Assembly (NCBI RefSeq): GCF_000055945.1
Contig: NC_008011.1
Location: 1,297,501 to 1,361,500, forward strand
DNA: 64,000 bases
Direction: 5' to 3'
Source of the DNA: Lawsonia intracellularis PHE/MN1-00
GTDB lineage: Bacteria > Desulfobacterota > Desulfovibrionia > Desulfovibrionales > Desulfovibrionaceae
Part shown: one piece after another, positions 25,433 to 30,566 of the stretch
Numbering within the stretch: the first letter of the stretch is position 1
Layout: each line of letters opens with the position of its first letter
Made by a program: the position numbers and the translations under genes
Notes under the pieces: model-generated
What the model was told of the DNA's origin: nothing
Database searches by the model: none
Seen by the model: the letters and a program-made list of their open reading frames with translations, nothing else

Positions 25433-26212
25433 TTATATCATTAGAGATAAAGAGGAGGGTAAGGTTTCTTGTGCTAATTTATCATTGTAAGAATAGAGAG
25501 AAGCGACAGCTTTTTGTGAAGGAGGTAAATGTGCTCCTATCATATTACCATCTATTGTAGTATTCTTTGCAGATGAAAACATAAAAGGCGACGCTAAGAA
25601 TCCAATTAGAGATTCATTTACTGAGAAATTTCCTATTTTATTAATAGATTTTTTTTCTTGTTTTTTTGTTGTAATAGTATTTTTTTCAGAAAGTTTATTC
25701 TTACCATTTTCTGCATTTTCTATAGAATTTTTTTCTATTTTTGCTTGTGCCTCCATTTGGTTTGCCTGAGAAGCAACTTGCATATCCTGACTTGATGGAT
25801 TTGCTGGTGCTAAAGCAGCACTACGGATTTTACGTGCTTTTTCAATAGTTTTTTCAGGATTTCCTTCTTCAGGAGACACATTTATTTGTACTTCACCTCC
25901 TGTTGCATAGCTTTTATTATCTGGTCCTTTTGTAGTTGTATAACTTGCTGGACTGGTTAAATCTCCACCAGCAGTCATATGGGCTTGTTCATGAGTACGT
26001 ACTTCTTGATCACGTTTTTTTAATTCTTCAACTTCTTTTTTTTGCTCAGGGGTAAGTCTAAGTCCTGTTGCATCAGTATCTTTCTCTTTTGAAAGATTAT
26101 TTTGAATTGGAGTATTCGTATTCTCTTTTTTGCTTTTTTGACTGTCACTATGTACAGAACATCCTGAGCATCCTGAGAAACTTATAGAAGAAGATGAAAT
26201 TCCTTCAATCAT
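25433..26212 (-). CDS. SprA-related putative metalloprotease
   Basis: Belongs to the SprA-related/CC_0126-like putative metalloprotease family by its core: LTPEQKKEVEELKKRDQEVR, then THEQAHMTAGG with the HEQAH zinc-like motif, then YTTTKGPDNKSYATGGEV, then NPEKTIEKARKIRSAALAP and PSSQDMQVA. I start it at ATG 26212 (259 residues), behind GGGGATATTAC, not at an upstream TTG (26245). The N-terminus is S-rich with two Cys (GCSGCSVH), and the C-terminal 70 residues are unlike the family. No signal peptide is visible. The substrate is unknown, and proteolytic activity is inferred from the HExxH-like motif. Confidence 0.75.
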   Translation of the reverse strand: MIEGISSSSISFSGCSGCSVHSDSQKSKKENTNTPIQNNLSKEKDTDATGLRLTPEQKKEVEELKKRDQEVRTHEQAHMTAGGDLTSPASYTTTKGPDNKSYATGGEVQINVSPEEGNPEKTIEKARKIRSAALAPANPSSQDMQVASQANQMEAQAKIEKNSIENAENGKNKLSEKNTITTKKQEKKSINKIGNFSVNESLIGFLASPFMFSSAKNTTIDGNMIGAHLPPSQKAVASLYSYNDKLAQETLPSSLSLMI

Positions 26213-26281: not shown

Positions 26282-26326
26282 AAAAGAAAAAAATACGACG
26301 ATCCGGAGGAGGAGGGATCGTCGTAT
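26282..26326 (-). terminator. Strong rho-independent terminator of the candidate minus-strand RNA
   Basis: A perfect 12-bp stem (ATACGACGATCC / GGATCGTCGTAT) closes a 10-nt loop that reads CTCCTCCTCC on the minus strand, followed by T7-C-T4. The direction is unambiguous: a T run follows only on the minus strand. Confidence 0.85.
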
Positions 26327-26505
26327 AGGAAGGAGGAGGAGGATGAGGTGGTTAGGGAGGTTTAGTCTCCTCAAAATAGACTCTCACTAGATTTATTTTG
26401 CTGTGTTGAAGCATTCCAGCGGTCTATGTGTAGCCTGTATATATTAACGGCACTTTGCCGATTGAACTGCCTTGATCCAAAACCAAGGACTTTTGGACTC
26501 ATTTG
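26282..26505 (-). ncRNA. Candidate small RNA with repeated CCUCC (anti-Shine-Dalgarno) segments
   Basis: The transcript would run from roughly 26505 (5' end not defined) to the terminator at 26282. The minus strand has higher G+C than its surroundings and no supported ORF. It has local hairpins near the 5' end (CGGCA-CTT-TGCCG at 26448-26460; TCCAAAA/TTTTGGA at 26476-26497) and a C/U-rich stretch (26325-26365) with CCTCC repeated, plus CTCCTCCTCC in the terminator loop. Such CCUCC loops are known in small RNAs that pair with ribosome-binding sites. No known RNA family (6S, SRP, tmRNA, RNase P, common riboswitches) fits by eye. Alternatively it is a leader of the SprA-related gene ending in an attenuator 70 bases before that start. 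Confidence 0.45.
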
Positions 26506-26848
26506 TCATAATAAAATACAATTACTATATTTTATATATCCTTTTCTAATTTTCTATTAGATTAGAGTCCTTGTTAAGTTTCTATTTTAATAATTTCACT
26601 ATATATATATATATTATAAAATGGACTAACACTTGCTAATACCTTAATAAACACCTTACCTAAAAACTTATATACTTCTTTTTACCACTATGAAGTTATT
26701 AAGAAATAATTGCTAATAAACTTTTTCTTTTATGCGTGTTTTTTTGTTTGATATTTACTTTAAAGCAACTCGTGTGCCAAAAGTATAATATATTGATAAT
26801 ATTTATTATTCATAAATGAAATATACTAAGGGGAGAGTTTTGATATAT

Positions 26849-26889
26849 ATAAAAAATATACATAAAAGAAAGTGCTGTATATTTTTTAT
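26849..26889. repeat. 13-bp inverted repeat, one arm repeated again at 27372
   Basis: ATAAAAAATATAC (26849-26861) and its perfect complement GTATATTTTTTAT (26877-26889) flank 15 bases. The sequence ATAAAAAATATACAT of the first arm recurs at 27373-27387, directly before the kinase start. Confidence 0.45.
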
Positions 26890-27136
26890 GCAGTATATAT
26901 AATTTTTTTGTTAAAATATATAGTATATATTTATTTTTGGATAGGTTAGTTTAAAGGACATGGGATGGGAAGAAAATAGCTTATAATTTCAAATAAATAT
27001 ATAAAAATATATAATTATAGTGTGAATAGCTTGCCAAAAATTATTATCTGGTTACTTTATATTATATATAACTTCATTTTTTCTTTTTATTACATTAGGT
27101 TATAATATTCAATCTGGTTTTATTTTTTACTTTTTT

Positions 27137-27158: not shown

Positions 27159-27388
27159 TTTTATTTTTTGATTATTCTTTATATATAATAATCAGATATA
27201 AAAAAGATAGATAATACCTTTCAACATAATTAATTAGATCGTAACTTATTAAAAAGTATAATTTTTACAATCTAGTATATATAAATAACAGGTAGTTAAT
27301 TTATAGATTAAATATATTTTATATAAACTTACAAAAATTATTTTGATAGGCTAGACAAAAGAGAACTTATGTATAAAAAATATACATT

Positions 27389-29131
27389 ATGTTAATAAAA
27401 ACAACTATGAAAGAATATCAGCCTAAACTTTCTTGGAGAACTATAGGGATATTTTTTTTACTTATCTTATTAGCTACTTTTATTATAGGAAAGTCAGGTA
27501 AACAGTCTCAGAATATTGTTCTGCAGCTTTTTTTAGATAAAGGCTCTACTTTGATTAATTCTATAGCTCATTTAACAAAAGATGATACAATAGGATATAA
27601 TAAGGGATTTCAAATACAATTGGTAATTGATAAGTTAGTAAGGCAAAAAGATGTTTATTTTATTGTAGTTACAACTCAAGAAAAAATATTTTTTGCACAT
27701 TCTTCAGATAGTAACTTTCCTTTAAACCGCTCTGAAATTAACACATTAGTGGATATGGCTTCAGCAACTGTTATACCAGGTGATGGTATAATGTGGAATT
27801 TTTTACAGTTAAACAATAATAATGCTTTTGTTGTATATAGTAGGTCCCCAGGGATAGTTAGTGACTCTCCAGTTAATGTAACACAAGGTAATTTTAAAGA
27901 TGGCTCCTTCATTTTTATTGGATTTAATCCTGAACTTTTTTTAGAGGTACAAGATGCTGATAAGGAACAATCTTTACTATCTATTTGTACTATTTTATTT
28001 TTTTGTCTTCTTTTACTATTAAGTTTTATATTTTTTAGAAACTTTGGATATATTCAAAAAACATATAATGTAATTAATGCATTGACAGAATATGTTGTAT
28101 TAACGTCTAAAGATGGTCTTATGTTACTTGACTCAGCTGGAGCTGTTTTGCAAATGAATCCAGCTGCAGCTCAGTTTTTTCATATAAGTAACCCTATTAT
28201 AGGGTCTTGGGTTTATCTCAGTAATAAAAAACACGATGAGCTTTTCCCACCCATTTTTTATGATGTGATTAAACAGGTTATTGAACAAGGGAAATTAGAA
28301 GAAACAGAGCTCTTCTTATCTTTAGCAGGAGAAGAACATTATATAATAGTTCAAGGTAATTCTTTGGATACATTTAAGAAGGGTCAACCAGAATATCTTT
28401 TATCTTTTAGAGATATTACAAAAATACGACTATTAGAAAAAGATCTTTATCAAAAAGATACGTTAGCATCAATTGGAAGCCTTGCAAGTGGAGTAGCCCA
28501 TGAGATAAGGAGTCCTTTAAGTTCTATAAAAGGATATGTGAACTATCTAGGTGATCGATTACCCTATGATAGTTCTGATCAAGAACTCATTAAAATTATT
28601 ATGCAAGAAATCGATCGTCTTAATCGAGTTATTTCTGACTTAATAGGACTGTCTGTCCCTACAGATGTTTATCCAGAGTATATTGATTTACAAAAAGTTA
28701 TTGAAGATACGTTACGTTTAGTTAAACTTGATGCTAAAAGACATTCTGTAGAGCTTCTATTTTATAGAAATGAAGAGCTTCCTTTTGTTCCTTTAGATCC
28801 AGATCGTATTCGTCAAGTCCTTCTTAATCTTTGTCTTAATGCTCTTGATGCTATGCCAGATGGTGGTTCATTAAAAATAATTTTTGACGTTAACAAAAAT
28901 ACACAGCAGTTTTTTCTTGAAGTGATTGATACAGGCATGGGTATAAATGAAGAAGTGTTACCACGAATATTTGATCCATATTTTACTACAAAATTGAAGG
29001 GCACAGGTTTAGGACTTTCAACAGTCCGTAAGATAGTTGAGGCTCATAAAGGAACAATACTAGTTTCTTCAGAATTAGGGAAAGGAACTATTTTTCGTTT
29101 AGTTTTTCCTCTTAAACTTAATGAGTTATGA
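27389..29131 (+). CDS. Sensor histidine kinase (NtrB/ZraS-type)
   Basis: A 580-residue membrane kinase. Helix 1 (about residues 17-35) and helix 2 (about 196-216) bracket a periplasmic sensor region of about 160 residues. A PAS domain (about 230-330) follows. The H box is SGVAHEIRSPLSSIKGY, with His near 371. The ATPase part has LNLCLNALDAMPDGG (N box), IDTGMGI (G1) and KGTGLGLSTV (G2). It is followed, with no gap, by an NtrC-type regulator, forming a classic pair. Start ATG 27389 or 27407; neither has a clear ribosome site. The ligand is unknown; ZraS-like kinases often sense metals or envelope stress. Confidence 0.88.
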   Translation: MLIKTTMKEYQPKLSWRTIGIFFLLILLATFIIGKSGKQSQNIVLQLFLDKGSTLINSIAHLTKDDTIGYNKGFQIQLVIDKLVRQKDVYFIVVTTQEKIFFAHSSDSNFPLNRSEINTLVDMASATVIPGDGIMWNFLQLNNNNAFVVYSRSPGIVSDSPVNVTQGNFKDGSFIFIGFNPELFLEVQDADKEQSLLSICTILFFCLLLLLSFIFFRNFGYIQKTYNVINALTEYVVLTSKDGLMLLDSAGAVLQMNPAAAQFFHISNPIIGSWVYLSNKKHDELFPPIFYDVIKQVIEQGKLEETELFLSLAGEEHYIIVQGNSLDTFKKGQPEYLLSFRDITKIRLLEKDLYQKDTLASIGSLASGVAHEIRSPLSSIKGYVNYLGDRLPYDSSDQELIKIIMQEIDRLNRVISDLIGLSVPTDVYPEYIDLQKVIEDTLRLVKLDAKRHSVELLFYRNEELPFVPLDPDRIRQVLLNLCLNALDAMPDGGSLKIIFDVNKNTQQFFLEVIDTGMGINEEVLPRIFDPYFTTKLKGTGLGLSTVRKIVEAHKGTILVSSELGKGTIFRLVFPLKLNEL

Positions 29132-29150
29132 CAGTTTTGGCAGAGGTACT

Positions 29151-30566
29151 ATGATGAAACCTATTATTCTTATTGTAGATGATGATGATGTACATCGTAG
29201 TATGTTGTCTGCATTACTAAAGGGGTGGGGGTATGAAACAGATGAAGCAAGTGATGGAGATATTGCAATTACAAAAGCAAAAGAGCATGCATATGATACA
29301 ATTTTATCTGATTTAAAAATGGCAAGAGTTGATGGTATAAAAATGTTAGAATGTATTTTAAATTATAACCCATCCATACCTATTATTATAATGACTGCAT
29401 GGTCTTCAGTAGAGACGGCTGTGCAAGCGCTTCGAATGGGTGCATATGATTATCTTACAAAACCATTAGACTTTGATGCACTGAAAAAAACATTACAAAA
29501 GGCATTAACACATCTACAGGTACATCCTATAGTACGGGATAATGAATCATTTCACAAAGTTAATACAAAAATTGAACAATCTAATTTAGGTATTTTGGGC
29601 CGTAGTCCATGTATGCTTGAATTAATACAAATGGTTAGCACAGTAGCACCATCCGAAGCTACTATTTTAATTGTTGGTGAATCGGGAACAGGTAAAGAGC
29701 TTGTTGCTCGAGCTATAAGACAAGCAAGCCATCGTAGTGACGCACCTTTTGTCACAGTCAATTGTGCAGCATTAAGTCCAGCACTTCTTGAGTCAGAGCT
29801 TTTTGGTCATGAAAAGGGGGCATTCACAGGTGCTGATCGACGAAGAGAAGGTCGTTTTAAACAAGCAGATGGAGGAACACTTTTTCTTGATGAAATTGGC
29901 GAGTTACCTTTATTGCTTCAAGCAAAATTATTACGCGCCATACAGCAAGGCGAGATACAGCGTGTAGGAAGTGATACACCTATAACAGTAAATGTAAGAG
30001 TTATTGCAGCAACTAATAGAGATTTACCAGAAGAAGTTATAGCAGGACGATTTCGTGAAGATTTATATTATCGTTTAAATGTAATAGGGATAGAAGTTCC
30101 ACCACTAAGAAATCGTATTGAGGATATTCCACTACTTGCTACATTTTTTCTAGAAAAATTTGCGCTGTCAAACCGTAAGGTAATAAAAGGATTTACGCCT
30201 CAGAGTATGGATGTACTCCTAAGGTATAATTGGCCAGGTAATGTAAGAGAGCTTGAGAATGCAATAGAGAGAGCTGTTATTTTAACTACAGGAGACTATA
30301 TATCAGAACGAGAATTACCTATGGTTATGACTTCTCCTTCACAACCTAATGTACTTTCTAGTCAATCAGATAAAGAAATAGTCCAATATAAAGATACTGT
30401 TAAACATTTAAGTCAAGAGCAAACCTTAACACTTGAAGAGCTTGAAAAAAGAGCTATTATAAATATGCTTCATGAAACATCTGAGAATAAAAGTGAAGCA
30501 GCACGTAGACTTGGCATCACAAGAGCGACATTACACAATAAACTTAAACGATATGGAATAGAATAA
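29151..30566 (+). CDS. Sigma-54-dependent response regulator (NtrC/ZraR-type)
   Basis: A 471-residue regulator with three domains. The receiver (about 1-120) has the acidic DDDD pocket and phospho-Asp in ILSDLKM. The AAA+ domain (about 140-380) has GESGTGKELVARAI, the sigma-54-contacting GAFTGA loop, DGGTLFLDEIGELP, and RFREDLYYRLNV. The C-terminal Fis-type helix-turn-helix is SEAARRLGITRATLHNKLKRYG. The start is ATG 29151 with AGAGG upstream; a start at 29121 would overlap the kinase. It is the partner of the preceding kinase. It is complete, unlike the receiver-less activator at 43057. Confidence 0.93.
   Translation: MMKPIILIVDDDDVHRSMLSALLKGWGYETDEASDGDIAITKAKEHAYDTILSDLKMARVDGIKMLECILNYNPSIPIIIMTAWSSVETAVQALRMGAYDYLTKPLDFDALKKTLQKALTHLQVHPIVRDNESFHKVNTKIEQSNLGILGRSPCMLELIQMVSTVAPSEATILIVGESGTGKELVARAIRQASHRSDAPFVTVNCAALSPALLESELFGHEKGAFTGADRRREGRFKQADGGTLFLDEIGELPLLLQAKLLRAIQQGEIQRVGSDTPITVNVRVIAATNRDLPEEVIAGRFREDLYYRLNVIGIEVPPLRNRIEDIPLLATFFLEKFALSNRKVIKGFTPQSMDVLLRYNWPGNVRELENAIERAVILTTGDYISERELPMVMTSPSQPNVLSSQSDKEIVQYKDTVKHLSQEQTLTLEELEKRAIINMLHETSENKSEAARRLGITRATLHNKLKRYGIE

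Follow-up and report, generated by a model that had tools for sequence, protein, structure and literature searches.

Most of what is known of small RNAs (sRNAs) with anti-Shine-Dalgarno (anti-SD) sequences comes from Alphaproteobacteria and a small number of other groups. The candidate RNA described here would be encoded in a 64,000-nt stretch of the Lawsonia intracellularis PHE/MN1-00 genome (the window); the assembly comprises four contigs, the main one of 1,457,619 bases. With CcsR1 of Rhodobacter it shares a CCUCCUCC motif in a loop and in a linker, whereas the locus and sigma factor of CcsR1 are unlike those of the window RNA. In Sinorhizobium, the anti-SD seeds of NfeR1 cover the ntrB ribosome-binding site and silence ntrB, and Hfq is not needed (PMC10746234). 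Like the window RNA, the alphar14/NfeR1 'cuckoo' RNAs carry multiple anti-SD seeds of the CCUCCUCC type that are unpaired, one of them in the terminator loop, and they are Hfq-independent and linked to an Ntr-type two-component system (PMC10746234). They differ in being controlled by sigma-70 with LsrB/NtrC in Alphaproteobacteria, in contrast to the sigma-54 promoter and palindromes found here in Desulfovibrionaceae. ZraP, a protein encoded at the corresponding loci of relatives, is related to CpxP. CpxQ serves an envelope-stress two-component system as its sRNA arm and resides in the 3' UTR of the periplasmic CpxP-type mRNA (PMC9438474), an origin that resembles the zraP 3' UTR of relatives. 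However, CpxQ is Hfq-dependent, made by RNase E and equipped with its own seeds, whereas the present family has anti-SD seeds, a sigma-54 promoter, no Hfq that we could find and stand-alone copies. GlmY, controlled by GlrKR/QseEF, is an sRNA encoded beside an NtrC-type two-component system and has a sigma-54 promoter. QseF sites are described at glmY (PMC8745638); GlmY differs in that it is a decoy for RapZ (PMC7073468) and not an anti-SD RNA. Within the same bacterial family, Dv_sRNA2 of Desulfovibrio vulgaris is controlled by the NtrC-family response regulator DVU0679 (PMC3333781); the paper names no ZraP link, and our comparison with this RNA covers its published description. A literature search, with many subscription papers outside its reach, returned no paper describing a ZraP-linked anti-SD RNA family.

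The predicted window RNA ends in a strong terminator. On the minus strand, a perfect 12-bp stem (26326-26315 pairing with 26304-26293) encloses the loop CTCCTCCTCC (26314-26305) and is followed by T6-C-T4, which counts as T7 when the final stem base is included. Nine different perfect stems of 10 bp or more, with loops of 3-14 nt, occur in the window, and this one alone combines a CCTCC loop with a long U-run after it. Seven overlapping CCTCC copies lie within the 56 nt from 26360 to 26305 (minus strand), compared to a best cluster of three per 75 nt when the whole window was dinucleotide-shuffled 60 times; by such comparison, the hairpin, the U-tail and the CCUCC cluster are far above chance expectation. 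The fold of this stretch also beats those of its own shuffles (z -2.5). No ORF of at least 50 aa was found on the minus strand across the sRNA region, and a short Pro/Ser-rich peptide was rejected, the relevant frames having no start codon. These results bear out the preliminary description of a GC-containing 12-bp hairpin with a T-run, preceded by repeated CCTCC in a C/U-rich stretch and, at this length threshold, ORF-free; of the two further hairpins that it reported, one (CGGCAAAGUGCCG, within 26464-26432) is common to a congener. The conserved segments are equal to the anti-SD tail of 16S rRNA and are mostly unpaired in predicted folds. The CCUCC seeds of the loop have predicted unpaired probabilities of 0.8-1.0; those of the linker are less open, and some CCUCC segments may pair inside the RNA.

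Table 1. Features of the sRNA locus and its neighbours (window coordinates).
Feature	Position	Strand	Basis or remark
SprA-related protein gene, downstream, judged its own transcription unit	25433..26212	-	sigma-70-like site; absent in congeners
Predicted primary sRNA transcript, sigma-54 start to U-tract end, ~470 nt	26282..26753	-	promoter position and terminator; no ORF of at least 50 aa
Core: CU-rich anti-SD segments and terminator, homologous to a Desulfovibrionaceae RNA family	26288..26391	-	20.8 bits (E 8.7e-4, 282 kb searched) with covariance model R1, which excludes this genome
Terminator hairpin, 12-bp stem, loop CUCCUCCUCC	26293..26326	-	sequence, folding, hairpin scans
CU-rich stretch containing ACCUCCCUAACCACCUCAUCCUCCUCCUCC	26327..26364	-	sequence; CCUCC unpaired probabilities 0.32-0.87, varying with transcript form
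Small hairpin segment CAAUCGGCAAAGUGCCGUUAAUAUAUACAGGCU	26432..26464	-	82% over 33 nt to the zraP 3' UTR of congener G001
Consensus sigma-54 promoter TGGCACACGAGTTGC	26765..26779	-	motif; same element upstream of 49/53 family copies
Putative operator copy 1, 11/12	26846..26862	+	83 nt upstream of sigma-54 promoter
Putative operator copy 2, 11/12	26876..26892	+	113 nt upstream of sigma-54 promoter
Perfect putative operator TGTATAAAAAATATACA	27370..27386	+	directly before kinase start, divergent ZraS/ZraR-like operon
ZraS-like sensor histidine kinase	27389..29131	+	profile matches
ZraR-like sigma-54-activating response regulator, presumed sRNA activator	29121..30566	+	profile matches

The sigma-54 promoter lies 388 nt before the core on the same strand (Table 1). 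We placed the transcript start about 12 nt past the -12 GC of this promoter; the likely 5' end is thus ~26753 and the primary transcript would have ~470 nt unless it is processed, a shorter processed form being possible. The 5' end near 26505 that was proposed earlier is therefore probably wrong. The AT-rich region between promoter and core (26510-26750) stands where relatives carry zraP. It yielded no convincing zraP remnant; one reading, THKRKSLLAII, resembles the start of a zraP signal peptide and is possibly a relic, but is too short to claim.

The kinase and regulator genes are transcribed divergently from the sigma-54 promoter of the sRNA. In NCBIfam they match ZraS and ZraR best, with scores under the equivalog cut-offs, and for this reason we call them only 'ZraSR-like'. 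A scan of genome contigs with the kinase alignment mostly matched unrelated kinases. The palindrome TGTATA-N5-TATACA was first spotted by eye in the promoter regions of relatives. Allowing at most one mismatch, it occurs three times in the window, always in this intergenic region, with 0.09 occurrences expected; none of 100 shuffles contained three. In most cases the palindrome pair of relatives falls near -83 to -105 and -115 to -137, a spacing similar to that in the window, and in some relatives the second palindrome is weak or absent. Across relatives, the palindromes scored on average 10.3/12 versus 7.6 in simple shuffles, the sole control used. From their position and co-conservation, we infer that the palindromes are sites of the ZraR-like regulator.

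In Desulfovibrionaceae relatives, the ZraSR locus drives zraP, and a terminator whose loop is rich in CUCC can close the zraP 3' UTR. The order in congener G001 is a kinase-regulator pair, divergent sigma-54 promoters, two zraP-like genes (Pfam Metal_resist) and a 270-nt 3' UTR with many CCTCC copies and the terminator loop TCTCCTCCTC. Its UTR and the window share a 33-nt hairpin segment at 31 bits, a score equalled in none of 300 shuffles (best 23.8). As with CpxQ, the RNA of G001 shares its transcript with a parent mRNA of the CpxP/ZraP type; in the window, there is no ORF from promoter to core. Congener G003 has the zraP terminator loop CTCGCCTCCTCCTGC, kept in the absence of a recognisable sigma-54 promoter or operator, and congener G002 has kept promoter and palindrome on a contig that stops after them. 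We found 162 terminator-like hairpins across 454 kb of related loci; four have CCTCC in the loop, and all four stand at the ZraSR/zraP position: in the window, in G001 and, within a third genus, in two genomes including G165. The only other zraP-like gene of the Lawsonia genome (C1:869541-869825), apparently downstream of a tRNA-like 3' end, has no sigma-54 promoter, no palindrome and no CCTCC in its UTR.

The zraP-type loci of one genus, g52, led to a strongly conserved RNA consisting of CCUCCUCCUUUGAACAGAACCUCUAACCAUCGGAACAUCCUCCCUCUC and a terminator, which is present in more than 40 genomes of this genus with 1-5 copies per genome. A sigma-54 promoter lies within 1300 nt upstream in 49 of 53 copies (G001 and the window included), compared to one on the reverse strand of the same stretches; since the copies are related by descent, these counts are not independent. 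Two architectures occur: zraP lies between the sigma-54 promoter and the RNA, or the RNA stands alone with 121-424 nt from promoter to core. Several stand-alone copies per genome were seen in G226, G160 and G169 (L321-L329), with a nearly constant 146-154 nt between sigma-54 promoter and core, which looks like amplification of a cassette. The window element is of the stand-alone kind, divergent from ZraSR-like genes. A covariance model of 19 g52 sequences (R1), searched against 282 kb, gave convincing matches outside g52 only for G001 (E 6.7e-6) and the window, whose score is modest and owes something to low-complexity CU composition; the window's genome was absent from the results of a whole-genome R1 scan run with stricter filters. 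For these reasons, the claim of homology rests on synteny, promoter, palindromes, shared hairpin and core together. The window element shows the marks of the family in combination, that is, a modest R1 match, a sigma-54 promoter with paired palindromes and a stand-alone sigma-54 unit. Plain DNA similarity, by which conservation was to be checked according to the preliminary description, gave only chance-size matches across relatives, because the RNA diverges too fast. Together, these sequence comparisons suggest that the window RNA belongs to a widespread RNA family that is missing from Rfam. Several relatives outside the main genus (g21, G084) also have CUCC-rich zraP UTRs, with weak or no R1 match. 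The zraP 3' UTR of G084 (~1440-1740 on the minus strand of L127) contains about nine CCUCC and several small hairpins and matches the g52 model weakly.

At the gathering score, the window region matched no Rfam family, which agrees with the RNA having been called undescribed. With permissive settings, the best leads were two anti-SD families, alphar14 (RF02344; E 0.023, 25.6 bits versus a gathering score of 58.8) and CcsR1 (RF02791; E 1.1, 15.5 versus 65.3), both short of membership. The window RNA has several unpaired anti-SD motifs, as alphar14 does, with seven CCUCC; it lacks the alphar14 layout of three hairpins each showing CCUCCUCCC, strong exposure in a hairpin being confined to the terminator loop and the remaining motifs lying in the linker.

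We searched for Hfq in this genome and in five relatives and detected none, with positive controls (E. coli, B. subtilis and others) recovered; a divergent Hfq could escape such a search. The genome contains ~350 GGAGG-N(3-11)-ATG sites versus ~290 for the reversed pattern, and duplex energies with 45 translation initiation regions averaged -12.5 versus -11.4 kcal/mol for shuffled sequences, which is no useful difference. As SD-like sites are common and duplex energies uninformative, individual targets could not be predicted.

We consider it likely, at a probability of roughly 0.7, that the window encodes a trans-acting, Hfq-independent anti-SD sRNA, induced by ZraR and sigma-54, that represses translation and was kept though zraP left the locus. 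By analogy with ZraSR, metal or envelope stress would activate the sensor kinase, and the response regulator would bind the paired palindromes at -83/-113 and then drive the sigma-54 promoter. The transcript would terminate at the CUCC-loop hairpin, and its unpaired CCUCCUCC segments and loop would mimic the 3' tail of 16S rRNA, pairing with the Shine-Dalgarno sequences of mRNAs and blocking initiation in an Hfq-independent way. Relatives would make the same RNA either as the 3' UTR of zraP mRNA or from a stand-alone sigma-54 unit; at the Lawsonia locus, the RNA alone would be left. The earlier interpretation is supported in part. Conservation, the promoter with its putative operators and the two architectures of relatives speak for an undescribed sRNA of anti-SD type, and anti-SD action is the best inference for this RNA.

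Other explanations deserve consideration. The CU-rich, G-poor and partly unpaired stretch right before the terminator resembles a rut site, so that the element might be only a terminator with a Rho-loading 3' end, backing termination of an untranslated RNA or a former zraP mRNA and having no role in trans. This we regard as unlikely: CUCC also occurs within the terminator loop, where it would be useless for a rut site, the core is conserved across many genomes in exact sequence and not just in composition, and ORF-less stand-alone sigma-54 copies exist, up to five per genome. Still less probable is a decaying remnant: in this view, the reducing genome has lost zraP, and its promoter, palindromes and 3' UTR survive as relics. 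Although zraP is indeed missing and the remaining intergenic region is AT-rich and ORF-free, the promoter, the perfect 12-bp stem, seven CCTCC copies and two palindromes spaced as in relatives have persisted while the coding part vanished, and stand-alone forms exist in relatives as well.

The preliminary description had offered as its alternative that the element serves the SprA-related gene as attenuator or leader; this gene starts at 26212 on the same strand, 70-80 nt after the terminator. We find this reading unsupported and very improbable, because congeners have the hairpin at the end of zraP transcripts and yielded no SprA-like gene, and because a separate sigma-70-like site (ATAACA-N18-TACAAT, 26266-26237; a 9/12 match, in itself weak evidence) lies between terminator and gene.

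If the sRNA reading is right, a separate lineage without detectable Hfq seems to own an anti-SD family linked to sigma-54 and to a regulator of the ZraSR type, in parallel to CpxP/CpxQ. Sulfate reducers, and also a reduced intracellular bacterium whose RNA regulation is little known, would then have an sRNA regulon open to testing, and the RNA would be a natural example of a 3' UTR sRNA existing also as an independent gene. More tentatively, and at somewhat less than even odds, sigma-54/ZraR-induced mimics of the 16S tail may act in the Desulfovibrionaceae as broad, Hfq-free brakes on translation under metal or envelope stress, with the RNA alternating between zraP 3' UTR and independent multi-copy gene and, in Lawsonia, having outlived the zraP of its locus.

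CUCC-rich 3' ends were also seen after other genes. In G171 (L010, 1501-1594, minus strand), a gene whose end resembles a small c-type cytochrome is followed by a 3' UTR that is rich in CCUCCUCC and has CUCC in its terminator loop. On contig C278 of G002 (L144, reverse complement ~430-500), two consecutive terminator-like hairpins with the loops CCCCUCCUCUCC and CCCUCCUCC end an apparent universal stress protein gene and may form a further anti-SD 3' UTR; the Rfam alphar14 model matches them with an E value of 5e-5, under the gathering score.
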